Part shown: piece by piece, positions 33,868 to 61,725 of the stretch
Layout: each line of letters opens with the position of its first letter
Position numbering within the stretch: position 1 is the first letter of the stretch
Assembly: GCA_902513935.1 (NCBI GenBank)
Contig: CABXOR010000001.1
Location: forward strand, 1 to 64,000
DNA from: an uncultured SAR324 cluster bacterium
GTDB lineage: Bacteria > SAR324 > NAC60-12
Direction: 5' to 3'
Length of the DNA stretch: 64,000 nt
Notes under the pieces: model-generated
What the model was told of the DNA's origin: nothing
Database searches by the model: none
The model's input: the letters and a program-made list of their open reading frames with translations, nothing else
Position numbers and translations under genes: made by a program

Positions 33868-33874
33868 AACTAAT

Positions 33875-40156: not shown

Positions 40157-40184
40157 ACTAACAAACTCAAACCAAGAAATAAAT

Positions 40185-40568: not shown

Positions 40569-40610
40569 ACAAAATCTATTTTTAAAAACTTATGATTAAG
40601 AGGTTGAATT

Positions 40611-41495: not shown

Positions 41496-41532
41496 ATTAT
41501 TTTGATGATTGATAACCAATAACTTGATTGAC

Positions 41533-43872: not shown

Positions 43873-44574
43873 CTATCGAATTTTTGCGGAATCCTGAATT
43901 GCTTTTTTGAGTATCTCAAAATTAAAGTCTTGTCTTTTACAAGCATCTAGTATGATCTTTTCTTTACGAATCATGAGATCGATCGCTGTCGGAAGTTTTT
44001 CCGCAAGTTCTGCTGGTATGACTACGGAGCCATGTCGGTCTGCATGGATCAGGTCATTGTGCTGAACATTCATTCCAAAAATGTTTACCGGTATGCCTGT
44101 TTCTTCTATGCGCACATAAGCGTGGGCTGGTCCAATTTTACCTGCCAGCACTTGAAATCCTGCTGAAAGGACATCAAGGTCCCGAACCGAGCCATTGGTA
44201 ACCACACCAATAACCCCAAGTGCATTATGAATGTTTGAATTAACCTCTCCCCAGAAAGCCCCAAATCCCGGACTTTCATCAATATCCTGGATAACGCTGA
44301 TGAATGGTGCTGTTCCGGAAGACACATATTCGTAATAAGCTAAACTTCGATCACGTTTTGTATTTGGATCCACTTCAGAAGATGCTCTGATTGTTGCTGT
44401 TCGGGCATAACCGACAATCGGAGGTAGAGTGGTATCCGCACAAATCATCTGTTCGGTTGTAAAACAGCTGGTACGGAATTTCGAATCGAGGAGTTCAAGC
44501 GAATTCACGATTGTAGGTGTGTCATATTTGCTGAAAGTATTAAGCAAGCTTTCCGGGATTTGTTTCATCGGCAA
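43873..44574 (-). CDS. RraA-like aldolase family protein
   Basis: A 233-residue member of the RraA/HMG-aldolase fold. GVIGVVTNGSVRDLDVLSAG corresponds to the family's G-x-V-x-DG-x-xRD motif, and NDLIHADRHGSVVIP to the D-x-x-G-V-x-IP motif that holds the metal. Aldolase members split 4-hydroxy-4-methyl-2-oxoglutarate or oxaloacetate; others are RNase E regulators. It is third in the HisD-like/SDR operon, 36 nt after the SDR, which favours a catabolic aldolase or decarboxylase role. Confidence 0.8.
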   Translation of the reverse strand: MPMKQIPESLLNTFSKYDTPTIVNSLELLDSKFRTSCFTTEQMICADTTLPPIVGYARTATIRASSEVDPNTKRDRSLAYYEYVSSGTAPFISVIQDIDESPGFGAFWGEVNSNIHNALGVIGVVTNGSVRDLDVLSAGFQVLAGKIGPAHAYVRIEETGIPVNIFGMNVQHNDLIHADRHGSVVIPAELAEKLPTAIDLMIRKEKIILDACKRQDFNFEILKKAIQDSAKIR

Positions 44575-44610: not shown

Positions 44611-45366
44611 TTACACTGCGGTCCAGCCTCCATCAACCTTGATGGTAGAACCGGTCACCATTTTACTCATGTCAGAGGCAAGAAACAAAACCGCGTCTGC
44701 CACATCCTCTGTCTGTCCAACGTGTCCAAGCGGGATTCGACTTAAAATATAATCTTTGAACTCATTTTCTTCCATAAAGGGCCTTGTCAAATCCGTCTCA
44801 ATGAAAGTTGGGCTTACCGTGTTCACCCTGATTCCATTTTCTGCCAAATCCAAAGCCATGCTTTTGCAAAAACCTTCCATTGCATGTTTGGATGCGCAGT
44901 AGACAGTTCTGTTTCGTCCTCCAACGATGCCCATCTGACTTGAGATGTGGATTATGGATCCTCTGATTCCCGATTCAACCATACCTCTTGCCACAACCTG
45001 GGCAACAAAAAAGGCTGATTTGACATTAAGGTCCATGACTTTGTCGAACCTCTCTTCAGTGACCTCACAGAAGTGTTCCGGAATGTTGTTGCCTGCGTTG
45101 TTGACAAGAATGTTAAAATGACCTAACTTTTTTAAATTATTAACAGCTTCCATTGAGCAAATATCGGCCGCATGAACTGAGGCTTTTCCTCCGGACTTAA
45201 TGATTTCATCCCTGACCTGTTCCAGCTGTTTTTCTGTCCTGGCAGTCAGCACAACTTCCGCTCCTGCAGCGGCCAGGGTTTTGGCACAAGCTTCACCAAT
45301 ACCTCTGCCTGCGCCTGTAACCAGAGCCCGCTGTCCCCGTAAATCGTAAACTTTTGCGGTTGTCAC
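44611..45366 (-). CDS. SDR-family dehydrogenase
   Basis: A 251-residue classical SDR. NAD(P) site [15 protein letters not shown] near residue 17, NNAG intact ([12 protein letters not shown]), catalytic Ser in HISSQMG and YxxxK as [10 protein letters not shown]. It starts with GTG and overlaps the preceding HisD-like stop by 4 nt, so the two are translationally coupled and probably act on consecutive alcohol/keto intermediates. The intact active site contrasts with the SDR at 20302. Confidence 0.88.
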
Positions 45367-46649
45367 GCAGCTTCTCCACTATATCGTCTAACCCTGAGAT
45401 CTGCCTGTTCCTGGTGTCCGGCAAATCCTTCAAGCTTGCATAATCTTGAACAGTATTCTCCCACCTTTACACTGGCTTCGTTGTTGAGAATTTTCTGGTA
45501 GGTGCATGTTTTGAGAAATTTCCCAACCCAGAGACCTCCGGTGTATCGTGCGGCTTTTAATGTAGGCAAAGTATGGTTTGTACCTATGACCTTGTCTCCG
45601 TATGAAACATTGGTACGAGGCCCAAGGAAAAGTGCGCCGTAATTTATCATGTTTTCCAGAAACCAGTCATCTTTTTTGGTCATTACCTGAACATGTTCGA
45701 AGGCGAGTTCATTTGCTATCTCAAGCATTTCATCATAAGAGTCTGCTACAATAATCTGTCCATAGTTTTGCCATGCAGGCGCTGCCGTGTCTCTGGTTGA
45801 AAGAGTTTTCATCTGTTTCTCTACCTCCTCCAATGTCTGCCTGGCAAGATTCATGGAATTTGTTAAAAGGACAGCAGGAGACGTTGGACCGTGTTCGGCC
45901 TGGCCCAACAGGTCTGTAGCGCACATTTCTCCGTCTACTGTTTCATCTGCTATGACAAGAGTTTCGGTTGGACCGGCAAAAAGATCAATACCGACTCGTC
46001 CATATAGCTGCCTCTTAGCTTCTGCTACATAGGCATTGCCAGGACCAACTAGCATGTCCACAGCAGGTATCGTTTCAGTTCCTAATGCCATGGCCGCAAC
46101 TGCCTGGACACCTCCAATCACGAAAATATCGTCTGCTCCTCCAAGATGCTGAGCTGCAACGATGGCATCAGATGGGCGTCCCTCATAAGGGGGAGCGCAG
46201 GTAATGATTTCCTTCACACCTGCAACATTTGCAGTTACAACTGACATGTGAGCAGAGGCTACCATTGGGAACTTACCTCCTGGTACATAACTCCCTACAC
46301 GGTTGGTCGGAATATTCCTGTGACCAAGAATCACTCCCGGAAGCGTTTCCTCTTCAACGTCTTTCATGGAATCCCGCTGAATCTGGGCGAAGTTCCTGAT
46401 CTGCTCCTGTGCAAAGCGGATGTCACCAATTGTTTGTGCATCAAGTCTATCAATACAGGATTGGATTTCTTTTTCAGAAAGCCGGAATTCATCCGGTGAC
46501 CAGTTGTCAAAACGTTTCGAAAGTTCCCTGACGGCTGTGTCTCCTCGTTTGTCAATATCCTCAAGCAATTTTTCTACAGTATCACGTATTTGTATCTGGG
46601 CTTCGTCCCGTTGTTCTTCTGAAATTGCTTCCTTTATCCAGTTTGCCAT
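45363..46649 (-). CDS. Histidinol dehydrogenase-family alcohol dehydrogenase (HpsN-like)
   Basis: A 428-residue HisD-fold zinc/NAD enzyme. Visible motifs are [70 protein letters not shown] (zinc Gln and His) and the C-terminal [19 protein letters not shown] with the catalytic-region His. No histidine-synthesis genes are near, and the sequence resembles the paralogs that oxidise sulfopropanediol or other diols (HpsN) more than HisD. It forms an operon with an SDR and an RraA-like protein. The substrate is not determinable here. Confidence 0.82.
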
Positions 46650-46713: not shown

Positions 46714-47688
46714 TTAACTCATGGAATAGCTGCTGATTTGCATCCATAGTGAGATCTCATCAATCGCATTATATTCCCTTACAACCAAACCTTCCTGCAT
46801 TTCAGCATGGGTCATGGCCATTATTACCACAGGAGCACCTGTTGGTTCGCCGAAACTTCCAAATCCGGTATGTTTAGCGGAATAGCTCCAGCGTAAAGCA
46901 ATTCTGGTGTTTTTTCCTTCCTCCTCATTGAGAATCCAATGATGAACCCTGAAACTTCCTTTTGGGAAAGATTTAGTGTAGCCTGTGAGAAATTCAATAA
47001 GCTGATCACGGCCATAAATAACTTTTTCTTCAGGAGCATGAATCTGGCAGGCCCTGTTGTGTGATTTTTCTAGAGCGATGAATTCTGATTGCTCCCATAC
47101 CGCCTGGTAAGTCTGAGCGAGATTTTTTGCTACTCCTGAAAGTGGTCCTGAGTCAGGAGGGCCTTCCCAGCGTTTAACGTAGCACTCAGCACTTGGAACT
47201 ACATTCCCGGTCTCCTTTAGGTTTAAAGCCAACTGCTGGCCGAATTCACTGGGTTCGAGTCCAACCTGTTTCACAATGGCGGACTGATCTCGCACCATCC
47301 ACTCATCAATCACCTTGTTTCCCCTGCAGACGCAGTCGGCGATGACTCTGTAATTAACTTTTGAACCTGTAGGAGATCCACAAAAGCCGTCGCCAAGATG
47401 TGTTGCTGAACTGAGGATCCTGTGTGATGAATAGAATGTGCCTGGCTCGTCCTCAGAACCAATAACATCTTCTCCCAGCAACTCCCTGTCTGGAAACATC
47501 TGCAAGGTCTTGTAGGTGGAGCTAATTACATCTTCAACATTGTCTGAGACACTTGTGGGGGTCTTCACTGGAGCTTTTTCCCCATAATAATCTCTTATTC
47601 GTTCCACTCCACGTTCCTCCCAGATACGATAAGTGATCTTGAGGATGTAATCTTTTAAATTCTTAAATTCTGAGTCAAATCCTTCCAT
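46714..47688 (-). CDS. Two-domain SnoaL/NTF2-like protein, divergent member
   Basis: A 324-residue cytoplasmic protein with two NTF2/SnoaL-like halves. Half one ends in NKVIDEWMVRDQSAIVKQVG near residue 140; half two includes an aromatic core VHHWILNEEEG and ends LVVREYNAIDEISLWMQI. SnoaL-fold proteins are aldol cyclases, hydratases, isomerases or small-molecule binders. It lacks the WYGP-x-G and PGP-x-T-x-DG motifs shared by the four relatives at 48.3-56.3 kb, so it is a distant relative. A truncated permease lies 22 nt upstream, so it was once part of a transporter operon. Confidence 0.7.
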   Translation of the reverse strand: MEGFDSEFKNLKDYILKITYRIWEERGVERIRDYYGEKAPVKTPTSVSDNVEDVISSTYKTLQMFPDRELLGEDVIGSEDEPGTFYSSHRILSSATHLGDGFCGSPTGSKVNYRVIADCVCRGNKVIDEWMVRDQSAIVKQVGLEPSEFGQQLALNLKETGNVVPSAECYVKRWEGPPDSGPLSGVAKNLAQTYQAVWEQSEFIALEKSHNRACQIHAPEEKVIYGRDQLIEFLTGYTKSFPKGSFRVHHWILNEEEGKNTRIALRWSYSAKHTGFGSFGEPTGAPVVIMAMTHAEMQEGLVVREYNAIDEISLWMQISSYSMS

Positions 47689-47710: not shown

Positions 47711-48058
47711 TCATACCCTTACTGGACCTGCGGTCAAACCGTTGACTATCTGACGCTGGAAGAACATTAACAGCACAAAAAGAGGTAAAGTTGTTGATAC
47801 AACTGCAGCAACTGCAGACATCACTTCACCTTCCTGTTGTGTTGATCCCAGAAAACTGGCTATCTTTGGTACCATAGTCTGGTTTTTCTGACTTAGAAGT
47901 ATTGCTGTAACCGCAAAGTCATTGTAGGCAAGGAGGAATGAGAACAGGCCAGTAGTTATGAAAAAGAGCCACATCACCAGAATGATTACATGGCAAAAGG
48001 CTTGAAAACGATTACAACTGTCAACCAAGGAAATTTCATAAAGTTCTTTTGAGGAAGT
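47711..48058 (-). pseudogene. Truncated CUT1 permease remnant
   Basis: The reading frame matches the last third of the intact permease at 50307. SSKELYEISLVDSCNRFQAF aligns with VPKELDESGMIDGCSHFQAF and FSFLLAYNDFAVTAILLSQ with FSLMLAYNDFTVTAMLLSY, through to the C-terminus QIVNGLTAGPVRV. The first two thirds, including the membrane entry helices, are missing: an in-frame TAG at 48059-48061 marks the breakpoint. It cannot form a permease. Confidence 0.85.
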
Positions 48059-48060
48059 CT

Positions 48061-48100
48061 AGAAAAAATTATACGTAAATTTTGTAAACGAGATGTTCAG
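48061..48100. promoter_or_regulatory. Conserved noncoding block, copy 1
   Basis: AAAAAATTATA-c-GTAA then TTGTAAACGA-g-ATGT closely matches the block at 53911-53950. It lies between a minus-strand permease remnant and a plus-strand SnoaL remnant, the same relative place as in the intact module, and is probably an old divergent promoter or operator. Confidence 0.55.
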
Positions 48101-48271
48101 CACTTCATGACGTCAGGATGGCATAGTATTAATACAATTCATGTCAATGAAAATTTGTTGGGTTATGACGCTTCAAGAAAAACCGTGACAAAGCGTGTGA
48201 TGAATTTTTATTTGTATGATAAAAGACTTTTTCGAGAGAACTGAGTCCCACATGTTATTTTGCTCATTCCT
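48101..48271 (+). pseudogene. Remnant of a SnoaL-like gene, C-terminal part
   Basis: The plus-strand frame from 48101 reads MTSGWHSINTIHVN then LLGYDASRKTVTKRVMNFY and KRLFREN, matching the C-terminal part of the intact plus-strand protein at 54257 (TGWPNMIQT, MGIAPSGKRITLRSLDFW, ELIREN). The codon for the invariant Trp after REN is TGA at 48242-48244. The rest of the gene is missing upstream, and homology fades by about 48270. Confidence 0.75.
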
Positions 48272-48296
48272 GAACAAACTATGTATTTTGAAGAAT

Positions 48297-49322
48297 TTAG
48301 TTATCCTCAAATAATATTTCAATATCCACCGCTTTGAAAACGTCGTAATCAAGCTGTTTTAACATATCAACAAGATCAACGAATACCCAATTCTCGACAA
48401 GTTTATTCCCTTCTCTTCTCCACCAATCTGAAATTCGACAAGTAAATTGTTGCCCTTTAGCTTCAATTCCTAACCATTCTTTACATAAATGTCCTCCGTG
48501 TGAAGGCCAACCGCCTGATGCAACGAAATTTCCTTCAGCAAATCTCGCAAAATGGCCTTTAACAGCTAAATCAAGCTTTGATCCTTTTTCACAAGTCATG
48601 GTTGTAGAAGATTTACGATAGGGATCAAAAACACTTTCATAGGGTAATTGAAAACGAGCAAAACCATCTACACCTATATAACTTCCATAGCCTGATGGAC
48701 CATACCACATCATATTTGGGTGCCAATATTTTCTCCAATATTGTTCTTTGGTATGAAGATTTCTAAGCATTTCTTCAACCATTACAAGGCTGGTTTTAGT
48801 TTCTTCTGAATTTTGAGCTTCTAATATAATCCCATCTGAAGTTATTGGACCAGGAATAAATCTCTCATCTCCCAAACTTTTAGTAAGCAACGGCCACTTG
48901 CCAATTTGGCGAAGTAAATCAATTAAATCAAAAAATAAATAAGTTTCAACTGCTTGGCCATTTTGCATTCGATGAAACTCACCAAAACGTAAATACGTTA
49001 ACTTATTATTTGCTGGAATTCCCATCCAATCCTTTGCAAATGTTCCAACATAGTGACCAGAGCCTGTCACCCATTCTTCTTCATTAATAATTCCACCAAA
49101 AAGAATATCTGTTCGTCGATAAAAGTCTGGAAAAGCATATAACATTGGTAAAAAAAATTTTTTTATAAGTTCTTCTGACCCATTGATTTCATTTATAGGA
49201 TCTACAATATTAATTATTGCATCCTTTTTAAAAAACTTATTAATTGCACTTTCATGGTTTTTTTGAGCATCGTATAAAAATGTATCACAAAAATATTTAT
49301 AAATTTTTTTATTATTTTCCAA
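48297..49322 (-). CDS. Two-domain SnoaL-like protein A
   Basis: A 341-residue protein with two NTF2/SnoaL-like domains and no signal peptide. Domain 1 has RFGEFHRMQNGQAVETYLFF (residues ~110-130) and ends IGKWPLL; a linker, PGPITSDGI, is shared by the family. Domain 2 opens WHPNMMWYGPSGYGSYIGVD and closes SDWWRREGNKLVENWVFVDL. The fold suggests a cyclase, isomerase or hydratase on a small molecule. It is the last gene of the transporter operon, 4 nt after protein B, and markedly AT-rich. Confidence 0.8.
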   Translation of the reverse strand: MENNKKIYKYFCDTFLYDAQKNHESAINKFFKKDAIINIVDPINEINGSEELIKKFFLPMLYAFPDFYRRTDILFGGIINEEEWVTGSGHYVGTFAKDWMGIPANNKLTYLRFGEFHRMQNGQAVETYLFFDLIDLLRQIGKWPLLTKSLGDERFIPGPITSDGIILEAQNSEETKTSLVMVEEMLRNLHTKEQYWRKYWHPNMMWYGPSGYGSYIGVDGFARFQLPYESVFDPYRKSSTTMTCEKGSKLDLAVKGHFARFAEGNFVASGGWPSHGGHLCKEWLGIEAKGQQFTCRISDWWRREGNKLVENWVFVDLVDMLKQLDYDVFKAVDIEILFEDN

Positions 49323-49326
49323 CTTA

Positions 49327-50301
49327 CTATTTCAATTTAGCAAATAAATCGTAGTCAATTTGTAACAAAAGATCTGGAACATCAACAAACACCCAATTTT
49401 CTACTAATAAATTTCCTTCACGACGCCACCAATCGCATACACGCATAGAAACATCTTTGTTTGTAGGTTCTTGATCAAGAAAACGCTTTACATGTTTACC
49501 GTTTACTGACAACCAACCACCATTGGTGGCATAATTGCCATCTGCTACACGAATAAAATCTTTTATAATAGTATTATTATTAGATAACTCTACCGTCCAT
49601 CCTTGAAAACAAGATTCAAATGGTACCTGAAAATTTTCAAAATTTTTGATCCCAATATAAGATCCAAATCCAGCAGGGCCGTACCATAACATGTTTTCGT
49701 GCCAATAAGGATACCACTCTTTGTTTGGAGTATTTAATTTTGATAGCATTTTTTCTACAATTGTAAGCGTTTTGCTCGATTCAATCGGATCACTTTCTCC
49801 ATAAACTAAACCATCATGCGTTGCAGGTCCAGGTATGTGACCTGAATAACCGGGGCTAGGAGATAGTGGCCATATTCCAAGCTCCATCATCAATTCTGGT
49901 AAGTCATAAAAGATATAAGACTCAACACATTTGTTATTCTGCATCCGATGAAACTCACCAAACCGTATGTAAACAAGTCTATTATTTGCTCTCATCCCCA
50001 ACCAATCATTGATCATTTTTCCAGCAAAATAACCTGTAGATGTAATCCAATCATTGCCCTCATAATTTCCTCCTATAACTATATAGTCACTTCGATAAAG
50101 CCCTTCAAATGCTTTCATCATTGGTTTTAAAACCTTATCTATATAACCTTGCGAACCTTGAATTTTATTAATTGGATGAACAACATTTATTGATGCTTCT
50201 TCAGAAAAAAAATTATGTACTGCATTTTTGTAATTAGTTTCATTTGGGTAAGAAAACTCTCTAAGGTAGGATTTATATAATTGTTTATTTTCTAATATCA
50301 T
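49327..50301 (-). CDS. Two-domain SnoaL-like protein B
   Basis: A 324-residue paralog of protein A. Domain 1 carries RFGEFHRMQNNKCVESYIFY and ends LGIWPLS, then linker PGPATHDGLV. Domain 2 opens WHENMLWYGPAGFGSYIGI and closes CDWWRREGNLLVENWVFVD. It lies 5 nt after the MalG-like permease and 4 nt before protein A, so it is tightly tied to the importer. The shared motifs with A, and less so with the two plus-strand copies, imply local duplication. A and B may form a hetero-oligomer or handle sequential intermediates. Confidence 0.8.
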   Translation of the reverse strand: MILENKQLYKSYLREFSYPNETNYKNAVHNFFSEEASINVVHPINKIQGSQGYIDKVLKPMMKAFEGLYRSDYIVIGGNYEGNDWITSTGYFAGKMINDWLGMRANNRLVYIRFGEFHRMQNNKCVESYIFYDLPELMMELGIWPLSPSPGYSGHIPGPATHDGLVYGESDPIESSKTLTIVEKMLSKLNTPNKEWYPYWHENMLWYGPAGFGSYIGIKNFENFQVPFESCFQGWTVELSNNNTIIKDFIRVADGNYATNGGWLSVNGKHVKRFLDQEPTNKDVSMRVCDWWRREGNLLVENWVFVDVPDLLLQIDYDLFAKLK

Positions 50302-50306
50302 TCTAT

Positions 50307-51188
50307 TTACCCTTTAACTGCTCCAGTAGTCAATCCACTTATAATTTGTTTTTGAAAAAACATAACAACCATAAATAAAGGTGCTGTTGCAGAAACCACT
50401 GATGAAACAGCCCACATCATATTTCCTTCATGTTGATTGGTACCTAAATAACTTGCAAGTTTGGGGACCATCGTATGGTTTTCATAACTTAACAACATTG
50501 CTGTAACAGTGAAATCATTATAGGCAAGCATCAGACTAAATAATCCTGCTGTTATCACCCCAGGCCACATGACAGGCATTATGATATATCTAAATGCTTG
50601 AAAATGTGAGCACCCATCTATCATGCCACTTTCATCTAGCTCTTTTGGAACGGTTTTAAAAAAAGAATATAATAACCATAAAGTGAATGGTTGATTAATC
50701 GCAACAAGAACGATAATAGTTGTTGGAAGAATACCCCAAATGTTTAATTGAAAAAAGGGGAAAAGATATCCTGAAACAAGCGTAATATGTGGCATAGCAC
50801 GAAAAACAAGTGCAGCTATTAATATCCAAAATGCATATCGATAAGGTGAGCGTGAGAGAGCATACCCTCCAAGAGTTCCTAGAAATAAAGAGATCGTAAC
50901 AACAAAGAAAGTTACAATTACTGAATTTCTTGCTGCATACAAAAATTCTCCTTCAATCCAAGCTTCTCTAAATGCATTTAAAGTGTATCGTCCGCCAGTC
51001 TCAATAATTGTATGAAAACCTGAGATTACATACCACCAATCAGATCTTGAAAAAAAATCCTCACGAACCTTAAATGATCCTAAGAAAGTCCAGATAAATG
51101 GAAAAGCTGCTATAATAAGCCAGGCTAAAATAAATATACTATTTATAATTAATAATTTTTTAGATTTTTTGTCTGCTAAAGTTGCCAT
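50307..51188 (-). CDS. Sugar-type ABC permease (MalG-like, CUT1)
   Basis: A 293-residue permease with six helices; the EAA loop reads ELDESGMIDGCSHFQAFRYI near residue 200, with Glu-Ser-Gly in place of the common EAA. It ends QIISGLTTGAVKG. It is the intact counterpart of the remnant at 47711. 6 nt after the MalF-like gene. No ATPase is encoded in this operon. Confidence 0.9.
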   Translation of the reverse strand: MATLADKKSKKLLIINSIFILAWLIIAAFPFIWTFLGSFKVREDFFSRSDWWYVISGFHTIIETGGRYTLNAFREAWIEGEFLYAARNSVIVTFFVVTISLFLGTLGGYALSRSPYRYAFWILIAALVFRAMPHITLVSGYLFPFFQLNIWGILPTTIIVLVAINQPFTLWLLYSFFKTVPKELDESGMIDGCSHFQAFRYIIMPVMWPGVITAGLFSLMLAYNDFTVTAMLLSYENHTMVPKLASYLGTNQHEGNMMWAVSSVVSATAPLFMVVMFFQKQIISGLTTGAVKG

Positions 51189-51194
51189 GTTTTA

Positions 51195-52223
51195 TTATCT
51201 TGATTCACCAAATTCACGCCATGTTTTAATAAGTACTGGAGTTAAAAGTATTCCAACCATGATGATAGTTAAAATAGATGTTGAAGCCGCAGAACCAAAA
51301 TTCATTACCTCAATATTTCGAAGATCATTATAAATTAACCATGAGAATGATTGAGCACTAGCCTCAGCACTAAATCCAAGTATCGGTTCGAAAACTCTAA
51401 TATTATCCATCATTGAAATAAGAGCAATAAAAACTGCTACTGGGTACAGATGTGGAATAACAACATGTCGAATTCTTTGCCAGCGATCTGCCCCATCTAT
51501 TATCGCAGCTTCTATGGGATCTTGTGGAACTGTTTGAAGGGCAGCATAAAAAACTATAAAGGCAAAAGGAGAATGGTGCCATATTCCATAAGTTATTAAT
51601 GTAATCCAAGTAAGATTAGTTGAAGCTTTTAAAGATAGATAAGGATCATTGAATAAATCTTGAATTGTTGATCCAATTATACCTTCTGCGTCAATCATCC
51701 AGAATAATACTAGAGAACCCATGAGAGGTGTAACAATCATTGGCAAGATTGTTACGAAAATAGTTGGACCTTTTATCTTCTGTGACAAAGCATTAATGCA
51801 AAGCGCTATAATAAAACCTAAACATATGACAAAAGGTGTAACAAATAACGTATAAGTTAATGTAAATATTAATGCCTTATAAAAAGGTAAATTAAAAAAA
51901 GTGCTAGAAAATTCGCTAAATGTTTTTGAATTACTCCATCCTTCATACAATTCTTTAAATGCTAAATGATTTCTATCGATATAAGTTTTAAAACCATTAA
52001 ATCTCCCCAAAGGTTTTTCTTTATTCAGAGCAGCATACGCTTCAACATCTACACCTATCTCTTTTTTACAGCCAAATGGATCACATATCTCCATTTCAAT
52101 TGTAGGTTTTTGATGTTCAATAAAAAGTGATTGAACAAAAATTGAAACAATAGGAATTGCAATGAACAAAACCATTGCTACACAAGTAGGAAGCATGAAC
52201 CAAAAAAAAGTTTTATGTTTCAC
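51195..52223 (-). CDS. Sugar-type ABC permease (MalF-like, CUT1)
   Basis: A 342-residue permease. After the first helix (FWFMLPTCVAMVLFIAIPIV), a periplasmic insert of about 85 residues contains the pair Cys-Asp-Pro-Phe-Gly-Cys, unusual in this family and able to form a disulfide. Five more helices follow, with the EAA loop PIEAAIIDGADRWQRIRHVV near residue 245. It pairs with the MalG-like protein downstream. Confidence 0.9.
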   Translation of the reverse strand: MKHKTFFWFMLPTCVAMVLFIAIPIVSIFVQSLFIEHQKPTIEMEICDPFGCKKEIGVDVEAYAALNKEKPLGRFNGFKTYIDRNHLAFKELYEGWSNSKTFSEFSSTFFNLPFYKALIFTLTYTLFVTPFVICLGFIIALCINALSQKIKGPTIFVTILPMIVTPLMGSLVLFWMIDAEGIIGSTIQDLFNDPYLSLKASTNLTWITLITYGIWHHSPFAFIVFYAALQTVPQDPIEAAIIDGADRWQRIRHVVIPHLYPVAVFIALISMMDNIRVFEPILGFSAEASAQSFSWLIYNDLRNIEVMNFGSAASTSILTIIMVGILLTPVLIKTWREFGESR

Positions 52224-52456
52224 GTAAGCAACTCTATCAGAAATTTATATGTTGAAATTGGTTGAATCCTTGAATATTCTTGAAGTGTCGAAAACTACCG
52301 TACTCTACCTTGCAACCTGAGCAAGAGAAAGTACAGGAATTATAAATAGGCTACTGAGGAGCAGAGCGTTGGCCACGGTTGTACATCTAGCGTTTTTAGT
52401 TTAGAAAGAACAGATGTAACCCAAAATCATGAATTTGGTCAGGTTGGAAAAAGTAA

Positions 52457-52487
52457 AAAAGGTGGAAATATTATCTTTCCACCTTTT
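52457..52487 (-). terminator. Hairpin after the binding-protein gene
   Basis: AAAAGGTGGAAA pairs with TTTCCACCTTTT around a 7-nt loop, 14 nt after the stop of the minus-strand binding-protein gene; a T-rich tract follows in the minus direction. Partial termination would give excess binding protein over permeases. Confidence 0.75.
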
Positions 52488-52501
52488 AGCATTTTTTTAA
52501 T

Positions 52502-53737
52502 TTACAGGAAGCCTTTTTCTTTAGCTTTACCTCTATAAGCAGCTTCAGTGTCTGCAAGTGCTTGTTGAGCTGTTTCTTTGCCTTGTAAGAAATCAACAAT
52601 TTCTGAGCCAAGTGCTCCATGCATAAGTGACATGTGAGGCAACATAGGATAAGGTTTTGCTCCCATCTTAGCTGCAGCAAGTACTCCAACTGATTTTGGA
52701 CCAGGTTTAAATCCCTCCACTAGCCACACTGCTTGATCTGATGCATCATTTGCCATTTTCTTAGAAGTTGCTGCATGAACAAGTACTTGAAAGCTAGCTT
52801 CCGCATCTTTATCTGATCTATTTGTTGCTAAAGTAAAGCCATCCCACCATAGAGTGGCTGCTGGAATAGAGCCTCCTCCAACAGTTGCGGGTGCTCCTAA
52901 TTTTGTTGCAGCAGTAATTGCCGGATCACCTTCATCATCAAGCAAAGTCCCTGATCTTGAAGCCCATAAAGTCATAAGACCAACTTTTCCTGATTCCCAC
53001 TCAACTTTGATAGCTTCTGAGTCATGAGTTAGGAAATCTGGATTGCTATAACCAGCAAGTGTTTTTAACATCTTAAGTGTTGCAATGCCTTTCGGGTTGT
53101 TGATATTTGGCTCTGCAGAACCAGATTTGAAAAACTCTCCACCATGACCGAGAAACATGTTTACAAATTCTTCTGCTAAATTCCATCCAGCTTTATAAGC
53201 TGCAGCATATGGATTTAGTAATTTACCTGAAGAACGCATTTTTTCAGCTGCTGCTACCACTTCTTCATAAGTTTTTGGTACAGCTATACCAAGTTCATTA
53301 AGAATATCTTCACGGTAATACAAATGCTGTGTATTTGCCATAAAAGCAACAGCCATCACTTTTCCATTTATTGTAATTAACTGTGATTTTTGTAAGCCTT
53401 CTCCGTATTTAGCAACAAGGTCATCCATTGGTCTAATTAAACCTTCATTCATTAAAGGCACAATAGAACTGTTAGCACCAATTCTAGCTGAATATTCTGC
53501 AGGATTAGCCGATAGAGCTGCCATTGCTAAATTGCTATGTTCAGATGTGTGATTCACTCTGAAATCAGCACCAGCTCCTGCACATGCTTTTGCTGTATCC
53601 GTGTATGTACGTAACGCAGGAAAATCATTTGCCAAAATATTTATTGATCCACTAGTTATCCCACAAGCAGCATAGGTTGTATGCACTAATAGAAACATGA
53701 ATGTTGATGTTAGGGTTATTTTAGATAGCATTTTCAT
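52502..53737 (-). CDS. ABC transporter substrate-binding protein (CUT1)
   Basis: A 411-residue periplasmic protein with signal peptide residues 1-23 (ITLTSTFMFLLVHTTYA). The SBP_bac_1 features are VNHTSEHSNLAMAALSANPA, NEGLIRPMDDLVAKYG, MANTQHLYYREDILNELGI and a Trp-rich ligand site (GLMTLWASRSG; ATLWWDGFTL). It heads the minus-strand operon with permeases and SnoaL-like proteins A and B, so its ligand is presumably what those proteins act on. There is a good ribosome site before ATG (GGAGAGAG, minus strand). Confidence 0.9.
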   Translation of the reverse strand: MKMLSKITLTSTFMFLLVHTTYAACGITSGSINILANDFPALRTYTDTAKACAGAGADFRVNHTSEHSNLAMAALSANPAEYSARIGANSSIVPLMNEGLIRPMDDLVAKYGEGLQKSQLITINGKVMAVAFMANTQHLYYREDILNELGIAVPKTYEEVVAAAEKMRSSGKLLNPYAAAYKAGWNLAEEFVNMFLGHGGEFFKSGSAEPNINNPKGIATLKMLKTLAGYSNPDFLTHDSEAIKVEWESGKVGLMTLWASRSGTLLDDEGDPAITAATKLGAPATVGGGSIPAATLWWDGFTLATNRSDKDAEASFQVLVHAATSKKMANDASDQAVWLVEGFKPGPKSVGVLAAAKMGAKPYPMLPHMSLMHGALGSEIVDFLQGKETAQQALADTEAAYRGKAKEKGFL

Positions 53738-54256
53738 GATCTCTCTCCTTTATGATGGGGGTTATTAAAAGGGGCTTAATTTAATGGCAACCCCCAATGA
53801 TTAATTGATCTGGAATGTTTAATACAAACAATTCTTCCACCAATCTGTTTAGACATAGAATGTGAATTATACAAAGGTATTCATTTTATGCAAGAAAAAT
53901 ATTGCAGATATAAAAAATTATATGTAATTATTGTAAACGATATGTAGTTCCATCAAAAAATGTTTCGTAAATTCATGTAAATCTAGGAAAAAATAACATA
54001 TCGTGAAAATATGGAAAAGGATCGCCATTGAAGTATAAACAGGTCTAAATTAATCAAATTTAATACAATTTCTGAAGTATGATATGAAAGGATTTCACTC
54101 ACCTCAGTCAGAAATGAAGAAAAACTGTATGTTGTTGAATCAATAGTAAAGGTTGAGAGGATTTTGATATGTGAGAAATATATATATAAAAAATGAAATT
54201 TGTTGCAGTTATTTTCAATGTTAAGAATTTTTTTTCCTATTGGTAAAGGAGTTAAT
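53738..54256. promoter_or_regulatory. Divergent control region of the SnoaL/transporter module
   Basis: About 520 very AT-rich bases between the binding-protein gene (minus) and SnoaL-like protein C (plus). It contains conserved block copy 2 (53911-53950). Both promoters must lie here; exact -35/-10 sites cannot be told from the general AT content. Confidence 0.5.
53911..53950. promoter_or_regulatory. Conserved noncoding block, copy 2
   Basis: TAAAAAATTATA-t-GTAA...TTGTAAACGA-t-ATGTAG, differing by only a handful of bases from 48061-48100. It is a candidate operator or promoter for the divergent module. Confidence 0.55.
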
Positions 54257-55306
54257 TTGGATAGGCACACAAAGAATAAAGAACTGATTTCTGCTTTGAG
54301 AATGGCAATGTACGATTTCAGCGAAAGTAGTGTACGCAAAGTACTTGATAGGCTTTTTATTTCAGAGACCGTATTACGCCTTTGCTATCCACTTGGAGAG
54401 AAAGTTGGAGTAGATAATTTTTACATGGATGTTTTTGCTCCACTTCTTTTGGCTTTACCTGATTTAGAGCGGCGTGACACTATTGTGATGGCTGGACCAA
54501 CTCAAGAAGGTACTGATTGGGTAGGTTGCTGTGGTTATTACACAGGAACATTCAGTAAGGCATGGTTGGACATTCCACCGACAGGGCATCAAGTTGCCAT
54601 GAGATTCCACGAGTTCTACCGCTTTGAAGATGACAGAGTGACCGAAGTACAGGCTATATGGGACATCCCTGAGGTCATGATGCAGGCGGGAGCTTGGCCA
54701 ATGGCTCCTAGTCTTGGTCGTGAATGGCAGGTTCCTGGACCTGCAACGCAAGATGGAATTATACAAGGTCCCTATGATGAATCAAGTAGCTCAGCAACCT
54801 GCCAGTTAATAATTGACATGCTTACCGCAATGAAGAGGCATCCTTTAGAGGGAGGGCCTGAAGTAATGGAAATGAATAAATTTTGGCACCCAAAAATGAA
54901 CTGGTATGGTCCCTCTGGTATCGGAACAGGCCGAGGTATAGAAGGATTTCGAAATTGGCATCAGATTCCTTTTCTTGCAGCCATGCCGGACCGAGGTCAG
55001 TTTGTTGATCAGATTACGAACCATTTTTTTGGTGATGGAGATTATGTAGGAGTTACAGGTTGGCCAAACATGATACAGACTATGTCTGATGGAGGCTGGA
55101 TGGGTATTGCTCCGTCAGGAAAGAGAATTACTTTGCGAAGTTTGGATTTCTGGAGACTGGAAAATGAACTGATCCGAGAAAACTGGGTTCTGGTAGATTT
55201 GCTTGACGTCTATGACCAGATCGGTGTTGATGTCTTTGCCAGAATTCGTGAGTTCAATAAGGTACGAAGAGGTTTTGTTCCTGAGACTGGTGTTGCACTG
55301 AAATAG
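54257..55306 (+). CDS. Two-domain SnoaL-like protein C
   Basis: About 349 residues. I prefer TTG 54257, which lies 5 nt after AAAGGAG; TTG 54200 or ATG 54218 would add an unlikely N-terminal stretch. Domain 1 has MRFHEFYRFEDDRVTEVQAI and ends AGAWPMA; linker PGPATQDGI; domain 2 opens WHPKMNWYGPSGIGTGRGIE and closes DFWRLENELIRENWVLVDLL. It is divergent from the transporter genes and less AT-rich than proteins A and B. It pairs with protein D 9 nt downstream. Confidence 0.8.
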   Translation: MDRHTKNKELISALRMAMYDFSESSVRKVLDRLFISETVLRLCYPLGEKVGVDNFYMDVFAPLLLALPDLERRDTIVMAGPTQEGTDWVGCCGYYTGTFSKAWLDIPPTGHQVAMRFHEFYRFEDDRVTEVQAIWDIPEVMMQAGAWPMAPSLGREWQVPGPATQDGIIQGPYDESSSSATCQLIIDMLTAMKRHPLEGGPEVMEMNKFWHPKMNWYGPSGIGTGRGIEGFRNWHQIPFLAAMPDRGQFVDQITNHFFGDGDYVGVTGWPNMIQTMSDGGWMGIAPSGKRITLRSLDFWRLENELIRENWVLVDLLDVYDQIGVDVFARIREFNKVRRGFVPETGVALK

Positions 55307-55315
55307 TAAATTAAA

Positions 55316-56323
55316 ATGAAAAGCTATCAAGATCAAAAATCATTGATTTTATCATTTTATGATGAGCTAGAAGCAGCAAATGCAGACAGTGTTGGAAAGG
55401 TCATCAGTCAGTTTACAAACCCTGACTTTCAATGGTACGGTGTCTACCCGTTTAACGAGCAGAATGGCGGAGATGCGGTAGCAAAAGTTTTCTGGATCCC
55501 TTTTCTCTCTGCCTGGTCTAATGTTAAGCGCAGGCAGGACGTTTTTCTGGCAGGTACCAGTGAGATTGACAATACTGACTGGGTTATCAGCATGGGACAC
55601 TTTATGGGCCTTCTGGATGGAAATTGGTTAGGTTTTCCTGCCAGCCGAAAAATAGCTTTCCTGCGTTATGCTGATTTCAATTGCATTAAAGATGGTAAAA
55701 TAATAATAAGCAGTTTTTTCTGCGATCTAATTGGCTTCATGCATCAATTGGGCATCAATCCCCTACCTCCTCAAACGGGCGCTTCTTTCATTTATCCCGG
55801 TCCAAGAACACATGACGGACTATTATTTGAACCTCAGGACCAGAGAGAGTCTCAGAAGACTCTTGAATTGGTAAACCGAATGATAGGCGATCTTACAGAT
55901 CTTAATAAAAATGAAAATGACTGCCCCCCTCCAGATTTGCTAACAAAAACTTGGCACGATGATATGATCTGGTACGGTCCAGCTGGTATTGGAGCATCTT
56001 ACACTATTCCGCGATACCAGGAACAACACCAGTACCCATTCAGGAGAGGGCTGAAAAATAAGGTTTTTAATGGCCACATCTGCCGATTTGCTGAGGGTAA
56101 CTATGCTGGTTTCTTTGGTTGGCCCAATCTGACCAACACGGCTACAGGTGGTTTTTTGGGGCTGCCTGCGAGTGGTACTGCTGCAGATATGAGGGTTGTG
56201 GATATCTACCGCCGGCAAGGAGAAAAACTCTCTGAAAACTGGGTGTTGATTGACCTGCCTTGGTGGTTAAAACAGCAAGGAGTCGATGTTCTAGAAAGAA
56301 CAAAGAAAATTATTAATAACTAA
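55316..56323 (+). CDS. Two-domain SnoaL-like protein D
   Basis: A 335-residue member of the same family. Domain 1 ends LGINPLP after FNCIKDGKIIISSFFCDL; linker PGPRTHDGLL; domain 2 opens WHDDMIWYGPAGIGASYTI and closes VDIYRRQGEKLSENWVLIDL. Compared with A-C, the EFHR segment reads DFNC, so the position of the conserved His in domain 1 is changed, which hints at a division of labour. It is co-transcribed with protein C. Confidence 0.8.
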   Translation: MKSYQDQKSLILSFYDELEAANADSVGKVISQFTNPDFQWYGVYPFNEQNGGDAVAKVFWIPFLSAWSNVKRRQDVFLAGTSEIDNTDWVISMGHFMGLLDGNWLGFPASRKIAFLRYADFNCIKDGKIIISSFFCDLIGFMHQLGINPLPPQTGASFIYPGPRTHDGLLFEPQDQRESQKTLELVNRMIGDLTDLNKNENDCPPPDLLTKTWHDDMIWYGPAGIGASYTIPRYQEQHQYPFRRGLKNKVFNGHICRFAEGNYAGFFGWPNLTNTATGGFLGLPASGTAADMRVVDIYRRQGEKLSENWVLIDLPWWLKQQGVDVLERTKKIINN

Positions 56324-56348: not shown

Positions 56349-57524
56349 TCAATACTGTAAAGCCTGTTCAAGATCTTCAATTAAGTCCTCCATCGATTCG
56401 ATACCAACGGACAGACGTATAAGACCATCCACTAAGCCTATTTTCTCCCTGCGTTCTAGTGGAATAGCTGCATGTGTCATGGATGCTGGATGTTGAATTA
56501 GGCTCTCCACTCCTCCAAGACTGACCGCAAAATGAAACAAATTGCAACGTTGAAGTACAGTATCTGCTCGTTTAAGACCTCCTTCTAAAACTATCGTGAT
56601 GATTGAGCCAAACCCATCCATCTGACTTTTTGCGATTTCGTATCCAGGATGATCTTTTAACCCCGGATAGTTTATAGATGCAATCCCAAGTCGAGATTGG
56701 TTTTCAAGCAAAAAGTTTGCAATACACTCTGCATTATAGAAATGCCTCTCCATCCGTACCGGGAGGGTTTTTAAAGATCTTAGCAATGTGGCGCAGTCGT
56801 TGGGACTTAAGACCGAGCCCAAAGCATTCTGAAGAAATCGGAGTTGATCTACCATACCTTCCGGAGCATAGCCTGAAATAGCCGCTACACCGGCTAACAA
56901 ATCCGAATGACCATTCAGGAATTTGGTGGCTGAATGAACTACCATATCTATCCCATGTTCAAGGGGTCTTTGGCAATATGGCGAGGCAAAAGTGTTGTCA
57001 CACACGCTAATTGCTTTAATCGATTTGGATAAAGCAGCTATTTTTTCCAGATCAACGATTTGCAATAGAGGATTAGAAGGTGTTTCAAACCAGAGCATCT
57101 TGGTTTCTTCTTTAATCGACTTACGTACTGAATCCAAATCAGAAAAATCGACAAAACTTACTTGATGGCCGCTGGATCTTCCTCTCACATTTGCAAAGAG
57201 ACGGTATATTCCACCATAAAGATCATCGTGCACTACAAGATGTGAACCTGCATCCATTAATTCAAGGACAGTGGCTGCTGCTGCTAGACCAGATGGGAAA
57301 GCAAACGCTGCTTGAGCTCCCTCTAAATCTGCAAGGCACGCCTCCAGAGTCAGACGGGTCGGATTAGCAGTTCTCGAATAGACAAAGCCCTTATTCTTAC
57401 CAATACCCTCCTGCACATAAGTCGATGCTGTATATACTGGTGCAATGATAGCTCCTGTTAGAGGGTCAGGTACCTGTCCGGCATGGATAGCTCTTGTGTT
57501 AAAATTTCTATGCTTAGTGGCCAT
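56349..57524 (-). CDS. Cys/Met-metabolism PLP enzyme (cystathionine gamma-lyase/synthase type)
   Basis: About 391 residues, a fold-type I PLP enzyme. ATG 57524 gives the family start MATKHRNFNTRAIHAGQ; an upstream ATG at 57575 adds 17 residues. The PLP Lys sits in VVHSATKFLNGHSDL, the cofactor-ring Tyr in APVYTASTYVQ, and the substrate-binding end SVGIESMEDLIEDLEQA is typical. It may be a cystathionine gamma-lyase, gamma-synthase or methionine gamma-lyase. Its divergent neighbour is MetE-like, which supports a sulfur amino-acid or thioether role. Confidence 0.88.
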   Translation of the reverse strand: MATKHRNFNTRAIHAGQVPDPLTGAIIAPVYTASTYVQEGIGKNKGFVYSRTANPTRLTLEACLADLEGAQAAFAFPSGLAAAATVLELMDAGSHLVVHDDLYGGIYRLFANVRGRSSGHQVSFVDFSDLDSVRKSIKEETKMLWFETPSNPLLQIVDLEKIAALSKSIKAISVCDNTFASPYCQRPLEHGIDMVVHSATKFLNGHSDLLAGVAAISGYAPEGMVDQLRFLQNALGSVLSPNDCATLLRSLKTLPVRMERHFYNAECIANFLLENQSRLGIASINYPGLKDHPGYEIAKSQMDGFGSIITIVLEGGLKRADTVLQRCNLFHFAVSLGGVESLIQHPASMTHAAIPLERREKIGLVDGLIRLSVGIESMEDLIEDLEQALQY

Positions 57525-57849
57525 GATTGTGTTTAAAAATAAAATTTGGATTGGTAATGAATTATTAAGAATCATTGCTTGTATGCATAACTACATCATC
57601 CAAGTAATTTGAGTCAAGTTTTAATCAAATTCAAACATTTGGTTATTTTTAAATAAAACAGTAATTATTAATTATGGAATGAACAAAAATGATATTTTTA
57701 CTGGTAAATTTATTAAGAAGATATCAACATGACATACGTATACAATGGAATTCACTATAAAATTTTCTTATAAAAAGTTTGATACGCCGATATATAATAG
57801 TATTCTTCAGACGAACGATTAAAGAACAAAAGAAAGGAGAAAAATAAAT
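57525..57849. promoter_or_regulatory. Divergent region between the PLP and MetE-like genes
   Basis: About 325 AT-rich bases. A palindromic CATACGTATAC lies near 57733. AAAGGAG at 57833-57839 is a strong ribosome site for the plus-strand gene. I looked for an S-box riboswitch and did not find one. Confidence 0.4.
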
Positions 57850-58992
57850 ATGAAATTAAGTAAAGATAGAATACTGACCACACATGTTGGCAGCCTTCCT
57901 CGTTCTGAAAAAGTTTTTAAACTTGTCTTCGCAAAGGAGGATGGAAAAAATCTAGACAAAAAAGAATATGACGAAGTTATTGCTGACGCTGTTAAAACAG
58001 TGGTAAAAAAACAAGAGGAAGTAGGAATAGATGTTGTAAGTGATGGAGAGCAAAGTAAGATCAGTTATGCCACATATATCAAAGACCGTCTGAATGGATT
58101 CGAGGGTGACAGTCCTCGACTCACTCCAAAAGATCTTGAAGAATTCCCAACATTTTCCTCGAGAGCATCAAAATCCGGCGGTGTTCCAACATACACCCGT
58201 CCACGTTGTACTGGGCCAGTTACAGTAAAGGACATGAAACCACTTGAAATCGATCTCGCAAATTTACGAAAGGCACTTGATGGGACTAGTTTCTCTGAAG
58301 CTTTCATGAACGCTGCTTCACCAGGTGTGATCGCTCTATTCCAGCCAAATGAATATTATCCCGATCACAAAAGATACCTCTATGCTTTAGCAGATTCAAT
58401 GAAAGCCGAATATGAAGGGATTGCGAAAGCGGGCTTTCTAATTCAGATTGATAGCCCTGATTTAGCTCTTGGACGTCATGTACTTTTCAAGGACAAAAGT
58501 GACGAAAAGTTCCTTTCTATGATTCAACTCCACATCGAAGCCCTAAATCATGCACTTGAGAACATATCCTCAGAAAAACTTCGTCTGCATGTCTGTTGGG
58601 GTAACTACCAGGGTCCTCACCACTGTGATATCGAGATGAAGAAAATTCTTCCTACAGTCCTAAAAGCCAAACCTCAGGCTCTTTCATTTGAAGGATCTAA
58701 CCCACGACACAGTCACGAATGGACTGTTTTCAGAGATTTCAAAATTCCTGAGGAGAAGATTTTGATTCCAGGTGTACTCGATTCGACAACAAACTTTGTA
58801 GAGCACCCTGAACTGGTTTCAGAACGAATTTGTCGATTTGCAGATATTGTTGGAAGAAATAGGGTAATTGCTGGCTCCGACTGCGGATTTTCTACATTCG
58901 CCGGTTTTGGAACAGTCGATGCTGACATAACCTATGCAAAACTTTCATCGCTGGCAAAAGGTGCAGAAATAGCTTCAAAAAAGCTTTGGTAA
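57850..58992 (+). CDS. MetE C-terminal-domain-like methyl/alkyl transferase
   Basis: A 380-residue stand-alone barrel of the cobalamin-independent methionine synthase C-terminal family. The zinc ligands are all present: His-x-Cys in LRLHVCWGNYQG, Glu in ALSFEGSNPR and Cys in AGSDCGFST near the end. Full MetE also has an N-terminal domain, absent here; short relatives include methyltransferases using other methyl donors and the epoxyalkane:CoM transferase. The acceptor is likely a thiol. It precedes a bicupin gene by about 110 nt. Confidence 0.87.
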   Translation: MKLSKDRILTTHVGSLPRSEKVFKLVFAKEDGKNLDKKEYDEVIADAVKTVVKKQEEVGIDVVSDGEQSKISYATYIKDRLNGFEGDSPRLTPKDLEEFPTFSSRASKSGGVPTYTRPRCTGPVTVKDMKPLEIDLANLRKALDGTSFSEAFMNAASPGVIALFQPNEYYPDHKRYLYALADSMKAEYEGIAKAGFLIQIDSPDLALGRHVLFKDKSDEKFLSMIQLHIEALNHALENISSEKLRLHVCWGNYQGPHHCDIEMKKILPTVLKAKPQALSFEGSNPRHSHEWTVFRDFKIPEEKILIPGVLDSTTNFVEHPELVSERICRFADIVGRNRVIAGSDCGFSTFAGFGTVDADITYAKLSSLAKGAEIASKKLW

Positions 58993-59103
58993 AATCTTTC
59001 CAGCATGGTGTGAAATTATTAACAAAAACACCCAACAGAGACCGCTTGACAAATTTTTGAAACTGTTTTCTTCACCAAAAAATAATAAATTTTTGTGTCA
59101 TCT

Positions 59104-60108
59104 ATGAAAACACTTGAAACTATGGGAAAAAGACTAGTTCGTAGGAGTGAAATGGTTCCCTGTAAAAGTGCCTTTATAGATGCTCATACTCCTGGGAGTC
59201 ATCTCAAGGACAACTTTAGTATTATTGGGCCAGGTGTAACAGAAAATAAAGAACAGTTCATCAATATACGCGAACCACATGGATTCAACATCGGAGCAGC
59301 TGGTCAGCCACCTCACATCAAAAACTCACTACATAGCCACTTCACAGCTGAGGTATTCATGATTCAAAAAGGAGCTTTCGAAATTTACTGGGGGTTGAAG
59401 GCTGAAAACCGGACAACTCTGTCTGAGGGAGACGTTATTTCTATACCAACAAATTGTTTTCGCGGTTTTGAAAACATAGGTAATAAATATGGATTCATGT
59501 TCGCAATTCTTGGAGGAGATGATACAGGCGGTGTTGAATGGGCTCCTCAAGTATTCGAAGAAGCTGAAGATCATGGACTAGTATTGCTTGAAGATTATGG
59601 AGTGTGGGATTCCAATAAGCATCCCATTCCAAAAGGTGCAAAACCAGTTAGACCTATGAGTCATGAAAAAGCCGCAACTTATGAGAACTACTCTACTGAA
59701 GAGATGGAGCTACGAATATGCCGCTCAGACTCTCTAAAACCACTAAAGAATCATTCTTTAAAACCTGGAGAATTCGGTTCAATTCAATTACATCGTTTAA
59801 TAGGAACAAAAGAATCTGTTATTCCTGGTGGAGATGGATTTGAATTATTACTCTCCGTCGCCAAACCAGGAGGAGGATTTAAAACGTTTTGCAGACCTGA
59901 AAAAGAAGTCCTAATCTGTTATGAAGGAATCTGGAAAGTCGATTGGACTGGTGAGGGCCAAAAAGGAAGTTTTTTGCTCAATGCCGGTGATTTGTTTTCA
60001 GTACCTGATCACTTTGAAAGGTCAATGGAATGTGTTGGGAAAAATGAGGGATCTCTATACTCTGTCATAAATGAAAACTCACCGAAAGATCCTAGTTGGA
60101 CTAACTGA
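59104..60108 (+). CDS. Bicupin protein
   Basis: About 334 residues with two cupin barrels. Barrel 1 has HSHFTAEVFMIQKGAFEIYWG then GDVISIPTNCFRGFEN (His-x-His...Glu and the late P-x-x-x-x-R/H motif); barrel 2, near residue 245-320, has LLLSVAKPGGG, EVLICYEGIWKVDW and AGDLFSVPDHFERSMEC. Metal ligands are clearer in barrel 1 (HSH). ATG 59104 is chosen; GTG 59095 is possible. Its role may be a dioxygenase, isomerase or sugar-binding enzyme; the operon-like position after the MetE-like gene is the only clue. Confidence 0.78.
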   Translation: MKTLETMGKRLVRRSEMVPCKSAFIDAHTPGSHLKDNFSIIGPGVTENKEQFINIREPHGFNIGAAGQPPHIKNSLHSHFTAEVFMIQKGAFEIYWGLKAENRTTLSEGDVISIPTNCFRGFENIGNKYGFMFAILGGDDTGGVEWAPQVFEEAEDHGLVLLEDYGVWDSNKHPIPKGAKPVRPMSHEKAATYENYSTEEMELRICRSDSLKPLKNHSLKPGEFGSIQLHRLIGTKESVIPGGDGFELLLSVAKPGGGFKTFCRPEKEVLICYEGIWKVDWTGEGQKGSFLLNAGDLFSVPDHFERSMECVGKNEGSLYSVINENSPKDPSWTN

Positions 60109-61651: not shown

Positions 61652-61725
61652 CGACGTGCAAGAGTAGGACGATCGGCCCGATAATATTTAATTGGAAAAC
61701 CAGTAATGCGTCAAACGCCTACTGG

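Follow-up and report, generated by a model that had tools for sequence, protein, structure and literature searches.

SnoaL-fold proteins are known from antibiotic biosynthesis, and SnoaL, AclR, SnoaL2 and KstA15 are polyketide-tailoring members of the family PF07366. Here we analysed a stretch of 64,000 nucleotides from an uncultured SAR324 cluster bacterium (contig CABXOR010000001.1, positions 1 to 64,000), called the window in what follows, in which the genes for a solute-binding protein (SBP) and two permeases of an importer of the carbohydrate uptake transporter 1 (CUT1) type stand among genes for SnoaL-like proteins. Compared to the members named above, these proteins have two domains per chain and are found in a context that looks catabolic, and the cluster offers a test of this fold in catabolism. 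Our results support that the importer and the tandem SnoaL genes form a real and recurrent unit, a conclusion which is far firmer than those on the chemistry.

The polyether epoxide hydrolases Lsd19, which has tandem NTF2 domains, MonBI and MonBII were the best matches by Foldseek over the whole length (E of 3.7e-09 or higher). However, over nine chains the predicted model aligned to them with a template modelling (TM) score of 0.32-0.36 over the query, a root-mean-square deviation of 14.5-17.9 Å and 8-11% identity; because of the low TM scores and high deviations, the domains appear to be placed differently in the model. CUT1 operons with LacI regulators are another point of comparison, since relatives of the cluster hold an SBP, two permeases, dehydrogenases and usually an ATPase and a LacI gene. 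The fuller loci differ from such operons in their three to five tandem SnoaL paralogues, and we know of no described operon with a set of this kind. A description of the cluster was not found in the titles and first lines of the abstracts of the open-access papers listed, a search that did not cover subscription papers.

In addition, two neighbouring dehydrogenases recall HpsN and HpsO of the 2,3-dihydroxypropane-1-sulfonate (DHPS) pathway. HpsO is a short-chain dehydrogenase/reductase (SDR) in which the DHPS-binding Gln147 lies two residues past the catalytic Ser145 (PMC11131964, partial text). The locus studied here differs in its CUT1-type importer and SnoaL genes, neither of which is mentioned for HpsN and HpsO in that partial text.

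The importer and its tandem SnoaL proteins

The central part of the cluster, together with the gene for a more distant SnoaL protein, is organized as follows:

46714-47688, minus strand: E, fifth and distant two-domain SnoaL protein, 324 aa (PF07366, E 1.6e-19)
48297-49322, minus strand: A, two-domain SnoaL protein, 341 aa (PF07366, two stretches, E 2e-21)
49327-50301, minus strand: B, two-domain SnoaL protein, 324 aa, directly behind the permeases (PF07366)
50307-51188, minus strand: MalG-like permease (PF00528)
51195-52223, minus strand: MalF-like permease (PF00528)
52502-53737, minus strand: CUT1-type SBP (PF01547)
54257-55306, plus strand: C, two-domain SnoaL protein, 349 aa, divergent from the SBP (PF07366; the mechanical open reading frame starts at 54200)
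55316-56323, plus strand: D, two-domain SnoaL protein, 335 aa (PF07366)

The original prediction had described four two-domain SnoaL proteins of the NTF2 fold flanking an SBP/MalF/MalG operon, and the open reading frames and Pfam domains agree with it. E is a further tandem SnoaL protein, beyond the four noticed at first. By Pfam, the SBP_bac_1 protein and the two BPD_transp_1 permeases have the composition of a CUT1 sugar ATP-binding cassette (ABC) importer. The start of C is probably at 54257 and not at 54200, because its close homologues have 349 aa. A to E score 47.7-82.7 bits against PF07366 (cut-off 28.4), with two stretches in each protein; A is 44% identical to B, 32% to C, 33% to D and 17% to E. 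The predicted single-chain models of B and C have predicted local distance difference test (pLDDT) values of 94.5 and 91.9, respectively. Against the ketosteroid isomerase-related model TIGR02096 (cut-off 97.1 bits), A, C, D and E reached 18-33 bits and B gave no match.

A constant linker (PGP-x-T-x-DG), second-domain opener (WH-x-x-M-x-WYGP) and closer (ENWV) had also been proposed for A to D. The three motifs are indeed present in all four proteins and missing from E, but the longer form of the closer does not hold for C, which has IREN in place of LxEN. We then looked for loosened forms of the three motifs in the 221 tandem proteins of the window and the retrieved loci. These forms were found in 5/5 A-type, 26-55/59 B-type, 41-56/63 C-type, 26-38/40 D-type and 2-7/8 unassigned proteins, and in 0/46 of the E type. 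In the tree, window A groups with proteins of loci L057, L059, L060 and L081 (support 0.996), and clades D (40 proteins) and E (46 proteins) have supports of 0.90 and 1.0; clade B (59 proteins, 0.49) and clade C (0.12) are both weak.

To evaluate how often this organization occurs, we made a profile scan of one genome per species in 84,980 species. It gave at least 596 pattern matches, of which 574 were confirmed, and the best 80 loci were analysed. Their neighbouring genes were labelled using proteins of the window and of its relatives, with weak C-type matches (150-370 bits) scored as D-like. Thirty-nine of the 80 loci span 18 kb or more. An A/B-type match is present in 34 of them, and 25 of the 34 carry the SBP, MalF and MalG genes. 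The 25 transporter-bearing loci mostly add D, an ATPase (23/25), LacI, E (22/25), a HisD-like gene, the single-domain SnoaL gene F, a cupin gene (20/25), an SDR and a MetE-like gene, and ten of them an RraA gene. B, C, D and E occur together in 15 loci, and no further neighbour family recurred in more than two of the loci analysed. The nearest named locus, L057 of a SAR324 bacterium, shares with the window the gene order D, C, SBP, MalF, MalG, A, E, HisD, SDR, RraA and has no B. An amidohydrolase homologue is found beside D in L014, L015, L017, L035, L049, L054 and L096, and also in L057 and L060.

SnoaL genes standing elsewhere without the transporter had been named beforehand as an observation that would speak against a common role. 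At the level of the locus this was observed, since the transporter is absent from nine of the 34 long loci (L006, L012, L019, L024, L030, L038, L040, L048 and L060), two of which (L038 and L060) hold other cluster genes. At the level of the genome it mostly was not, as an SBP orthologue is present in 13 of the 14 genomes tested, with the exception of G112. In the genomes of L006, L009, L012, L019, L024, L030, L040 and L048 the SBP gene lies elsewhere, with the B-type gene on another contig or more than 1 Mb from it.

We further evaluated the association in an even sample of 121 genomes from the order to which the Aliiroseovarius genome G099 belongs, and which we take to be Rhodobacterales, with cut-offs of E <= 1e-40 for tandem SnoaL, E <= 1e-60 for SBP and E <= 1e-150 for HisD-like proteins. 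Tandem SnoaL proteins were found in 52 genomes, the SBP in 62 (about half of the sampled species) and HisD-like proteins in 67. All three are present in each of the 52 SnoaL-bearing genomes (Fisher P 1.8e-24 for SnoaL with SBP), so the expected co-occurrence of CUT1 and tandem SnoaL genes was found both here and in the long loci, and it is beyond chance. In 44 of the 52 genomes the nearest SnoaL-SBP distance is at most 10 kb; in the other eight the genes are more than 100 kb apart or on different contigs. Strict B-type matches (>=329 bits) were observed in only 11 of the 121 genomes, and most SnoaL-bearing genomes of the order therefore have C- or D-like types.

Among relatives of the window, matches to B were found in 13 of 98 genomes and, within the nearest genus, in five of 17; most of them score as C or D types would. 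Since few relatives match B, and the nearest genome compared (G001) is not one of them, the cluster island is patchy. Relatives of the cluster belong to SAR324, Thioglobus and, partly, SAR11, which are groups of the open ocean. An importer so widespread would point to an abundant dissolved compound, whose breakdown is not described in the papers searched.

Candidate active sites and companion enzymes

Asp121 and His107 of SnoaL have catalytic roles, according to the accessible part of PMC6830212. We mapped these positions by sequence alignment: in the C-terminal domain of B, a profile-to-IdmH alignment places V304 at Asp121, D290 at His107 and N302 at His119; in the N-terminal domain, with the two domains of B aligned by eye, the equivalents are I130, E116 and S128. 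In this mapping, which takes the catalytic roles from that partial text, neither domain has the Asp121 and His107 pair of the SnoaL polyketide cyclase. By the same alignment, each SnoaL pocket of A-D holds a carboxylate. D290 is conserved at 98-100% in clades A-D and E116 at 95-100% in A-C, while D has 62% Glu and 27% Asp at the latter position; E-type proteins deviate at both carboxylate positions (Ala, and mostly Ser/Thr). D133 and D307 are kept at >=94% in all clades, and D307 aligns with an Asp of IdmH that is outside the catalytic position. The domains of A-D are likely to be active pockets with an acid-base group different from that of SnoaL; a plain aldol cyclase of the SnoaL type is less likely, because the Asp121 equivalent is missing.

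The original prediction also held that no catabolic enzyme of a usual type accompanies the importer. This has to be abandoned, as such genes lie on both sides of it:

42921-43871, plus strand: Amidohydro_2 protein (closest PDB chain 4dlf)
43873-44574, minus strand: RraA-like protein (aldolase/decarboxylase family)
44611-45366, minus strand: SDR dehydrogenase of generic type (closest curated models glucose 1-dehydrogenase, FabG and KduD)
45363-46649, minus strand: HpsN/HisD-like dehydrogenase (TIGR00069, 448.8 bits)
56349-57575, minus strand: Cys/Met-metabolism pyridoxal phosphate (PLP) enzyme (PF01053)
57850-58992, plus strand: MetE-like (Meth_synt_2) enzyme, 380 aa (one Meth_synt_2 family match)
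59095-60108, plus strand: cupin protein (PF07883)

The genes for E and for the HpsN/HisD-like, SDR and RraA-like proteins are behind A, on the same strand. The HisD-like protein has sulfopropanediol 3-dehydrogenase (HpsN, 8v35) as its nearest PDB chain, at 368 bits and over almost the full length, compared to 262 bits for histidinol dehydrogenase 4g07. For the SDR, the search of solved structures returned a mixture of reductases and sugar dehydrogenases at the top and indicated no substrate. It is uncertain whether the PLP enzyme is a member of the pathway; its gene adjoins C/D in L057 too.

The MetE-like protein shares the fold family of the MetE core and its H-C-E-C positions (H-x-C, E, C), which were kept in 32 of 32 aligned sequences of more than 300 aa and 300 bits, window included, and which we take to be the zinc ligands of MetE. 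It differs in its 380 aa and single Meth_synt_2 match, and in a score of 116.6 bits against the best-scoring methionine synthase model, far below the curated cut-off of 406. The natural reading of these sequence features would be a thiol-alkylating zinc enzyme. In L055, L056 and L096, a small S-adenosylmethionine (SAM)-dependent methyltransferase is encoded between the cupin and MetE-like genes.

Genes of possible demethylation enzymes (MTTB, a GcvT/SoxA-like oxidase, a DesA/LigM-like protein scoring below its curated cut-off, or sarcosine oxidase) were found near the SnoaL clusters of L013, L020, L021, L023, L094 and L095. Four of these six loci are gammaproteobacterial (two carry the name Thioglobus), and L019 and L026, which are without the cluster, have MTTB-like genes as well. 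The case for a methylated ligand is weak because of this gammaproteobacterial skew and the MTTB-like genes outside the cluster.

Possible function of the cluster

With moderate confidence, we propose that the genes of the cluster form a regulon for the breakdown of a carbohydrate-like compound taken up by the importer, to which the SnoaL proteins would contribute as unusual acid-base catalysts. The CUT1-type importer would take up the ligand, and the tandem SnoaL proteins (A or B, C, D, the distant E and often F), with two NTF2-type pockets in each tandem chain, would act without cofactors on the ligand or its oxidised forms by dehydration, isomerisation, ring opening or ring closing. Alcohol groups may be oxidised by the HpsN/HisD-like enzyme, the SDR and sometimes dehydrogenases of the GMC type; the MetE-like enzyme would transfer an alkyl group, such as methyl, to a thiol, and the hydrolase and the RraA-like enzyme may complete the cleavage, in an order that could vary from the one given here. 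In most relatives, a LacI-family regulator would control the cluster. A carbohydrate-like ligand is suggested by the importer type and by LacI, the SDR being too generic to tell, and its methylation is weakly suggested by the MetE-like gene and the few neighbouring demethylation genes. The candidate ligands that we considered include mycosporine-like amino acids, methylated cyclitols and amino sugars, among which the evidence does not distinguish.

Several observations weigh against this proposal. The substrate and the activities are predictions from gene content, and catalysis by the SnoaL proteins is unproven since neither of their domains has an Asp121 equivalent. In the window, no ATPase gene adjoins the permeases (MalK-type genes are at 33948 and 41509), and no LacI match was found. 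The co-occurrence counts come from a single order and are phylogenetically non-independent; furthermore, in ten of its 121 genomes the SBP was found but no tandem SnoaL protein passed the cut-off used, six have a HisD-like protein without the SBP and one the SBP without a HisD-like protein. The SAR11 genome G112 (single-cell contig L078) holds tandem SnoaL, HisD-like, SDR, E and cupin genes without an SBP orthologue. Finally, the importer/SnoaL half and the oxidative half can be separate, as is observed in variants from Vibrio and Sinorhizobium. In the 29 kb examined of a Vibrio pelagius plasmid, HisD, SDR, LacI, cupin and MetE genes were not found, and in the 31 kb fetched from Sinorhizobium medicae, A-D and MetE were not found.

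The Vibrio pelagius plasmid carries ATPase, SBP, MalF and MalG genes, with two tandem SnoaL genes after them and two divergent ones before. Their products are of the C, D and E types, plus one that falls outside every clade; sarcosine oxidase genes follow the set at a distance of about 0.8 kb. In S. medicae, the importer stands together with HisD-like, SDR, LacI, cupin, RraA, amidase, hydrolase and E genes. A plasmid of the archaeon Halobellus limi has four tandem SnoaL genes, a single one and a MetE-like gene beside a Pot-type importer, whose permeases have PotB/PotC as closest models with scores below the cut-offs. Past a regulator gene, about 1.3 kb from the SBP gene and 9 kb from the SnoaL genes, there is a GcvT-type gene whose product has O-demethylase models as the closest ones (470 bits, cut-off 800). 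The four Halobellus proteins fall inside the weak C clade and can be assigned only tentatively to C or to another clade, as can the unassigned Vibrio protein. From these variants it follows that the SnoaL set is tied to more than one importer type, and that the oxidative half can be missing, or can accompany just the importer and E. More tentatively, at somewhat less than even chances, we suggest that in bacteria and archaea alike four or more paralogous tandem SnoaL enzymes, with eight or more NTF2 pockets, may catalyse the central ring reactions of a single imported natural product, possibly within a mixed complex, whichever importer family takes it up. The hetero-oligomeric enzyme of the original prediction, which would cyclise, isomerise or hydrate a ring compound, may also apply.

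The same variants could be taken as a sign of two independent pathways in one neighbourhood, one with the importer and A-D (with F and MetE) and another with the HisD-like, SDR, cupin, RraA and E genes: the Vibrio set lacks the dehydrogenases, and in S. medicae the second set accompanies the importer. E, however, accompanies both sets, the importer is common to both, and they recur together in the 15 loci with B, C, D and E and in the 52 genomes with both, which makes this explanation rather unlikely. We give a similarly low probability to the tandem SnoaL proteins being non-enzymatic intracellular binding or scaffold proteins that pass an unstable intermediate between dehydrogenases. The several paralogues per cluster, the missing Asp121 equivalents and a designed cortisol-binding protein of the same fold among the structure matches would be in line with it, but near-invariant polar residues in or next to the pockets (R287, D290 and N302 in A-D, E116 in A-C) seem to exceed the needs of a binder. 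Another idea that we find fairly improbable is that of a metal-free two-component hydroxylase acting on the imported compound, with the tandem proteins as oxygenase components like SnoaL2 and AclR (putative hydroxylases) and the SDR as partner. A comparison with SnoaL2/SnoaW does find a SnoaL2-like fold and a clustered SDR. Nevertheless, AclR was not separable from KstA15, 3kkg and other SnoaL-fold proteins among the structure matches, where Z differed by less than 1 and a family missing from the list is not thereby excluded; the SDR is generic, and the Vibrio and Halobellus sets have no SDR among their annotated or labelled genes.

A sulfonate pathway, with a ligand that contains a three-carbon sulfonate similar to DHPS, or with the HpsN-like enzyme and the SDR in the roles of HpsN and HpsO, would overlap with the carbohydrate regulon favoured above. 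As we mentioned before, the HisD-like protein is closer to HpsN than to any other solved structure; the adjoining gene encodes an SDR, the superfamily given for HpsO in the partial text of PMC11131964, and the SBP, with MalE3 and others as distant PDB relatives, also matches SmoF, which binds sulfoquinovosyl-glycerol, at 39.8 bits (third of 45 matches). The conserved stretch GRYAHIASA of HpsN, however, reads GKFPMVASA here, and at the position of the HpsO Gln147 given in that text, counted from the catalytic Ser and Tyr, the window SDR has Met. Because of these substitutions the DHPS pathway is not a simple answer, and we consider it very unlikely, in an analysis that included no search aimed at sulfonate-cleaving enzymes, hpsO or hpsP. 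We see even less reason to expect a biosynthetic cluster for polyketide tailoring, as annotations such as "ester cyclase" or "polyketide cyclase" and the name of PF07366 would have it: the labelled recurrent neighbours are genes for uptake, regulation and oxidation, in an analysis that included no search aimed at polyketide synthases or nonribosomal peptide synthetases.

Other features of the window

Between A and E there is a fragment from the C-terminus of a second MalG permease (47714-48028, minus strand), 60% identical to residues 189-292 of the intact MalG, which suggests that the importer operon was once duplicated or replaced. The G+C content is 0.333 at 48001-52000, compared to 0.363-0.452 in the other 4-kb steps; in view of this drop, the genes for A, B and the permeases may have been acquired recently.

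The 15-base repeat TTGTAAACGAKATGT has only two matches in the window, one in the divergent promoter region of SBP and C (53931-53945) and the other ahead of the MalG piece and E (48082-48096), and is a possible regulator site. It should be noted that the pattern was derived from the repeat copies themselves and that two of 100 shuffles gave an equal number. A shared LacI operator was considered and discarded, since L057 offers only matches with three mismatches, at chance level.

The region 60542-63353 (plus strand), past the MetE-like and cupin genes, encodes another importer, whose permeases resemble PotB/PotC; the Halobellus SnoaL cluster likewise has an importer of the Pot type. On the other side, genes for MmgE/PrpD, carboxymuconolactone decarboxylase-like, BKACE and MalK-like proteins (38825-42678, plus strand) adjoin the amidohydrolase gene. 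A separate sugar operon at 28746-36957 encodes a GH20 hexosaminidase, an SBP, a MalK-like protein and GFO/IDH/MocA proteins, and the region 21071-25140 (minus strand) holds genes for the DctM subunit of a tripartite ATP-independent periplasmic (TRAP) transporter and for a protein of the proline racemase family.

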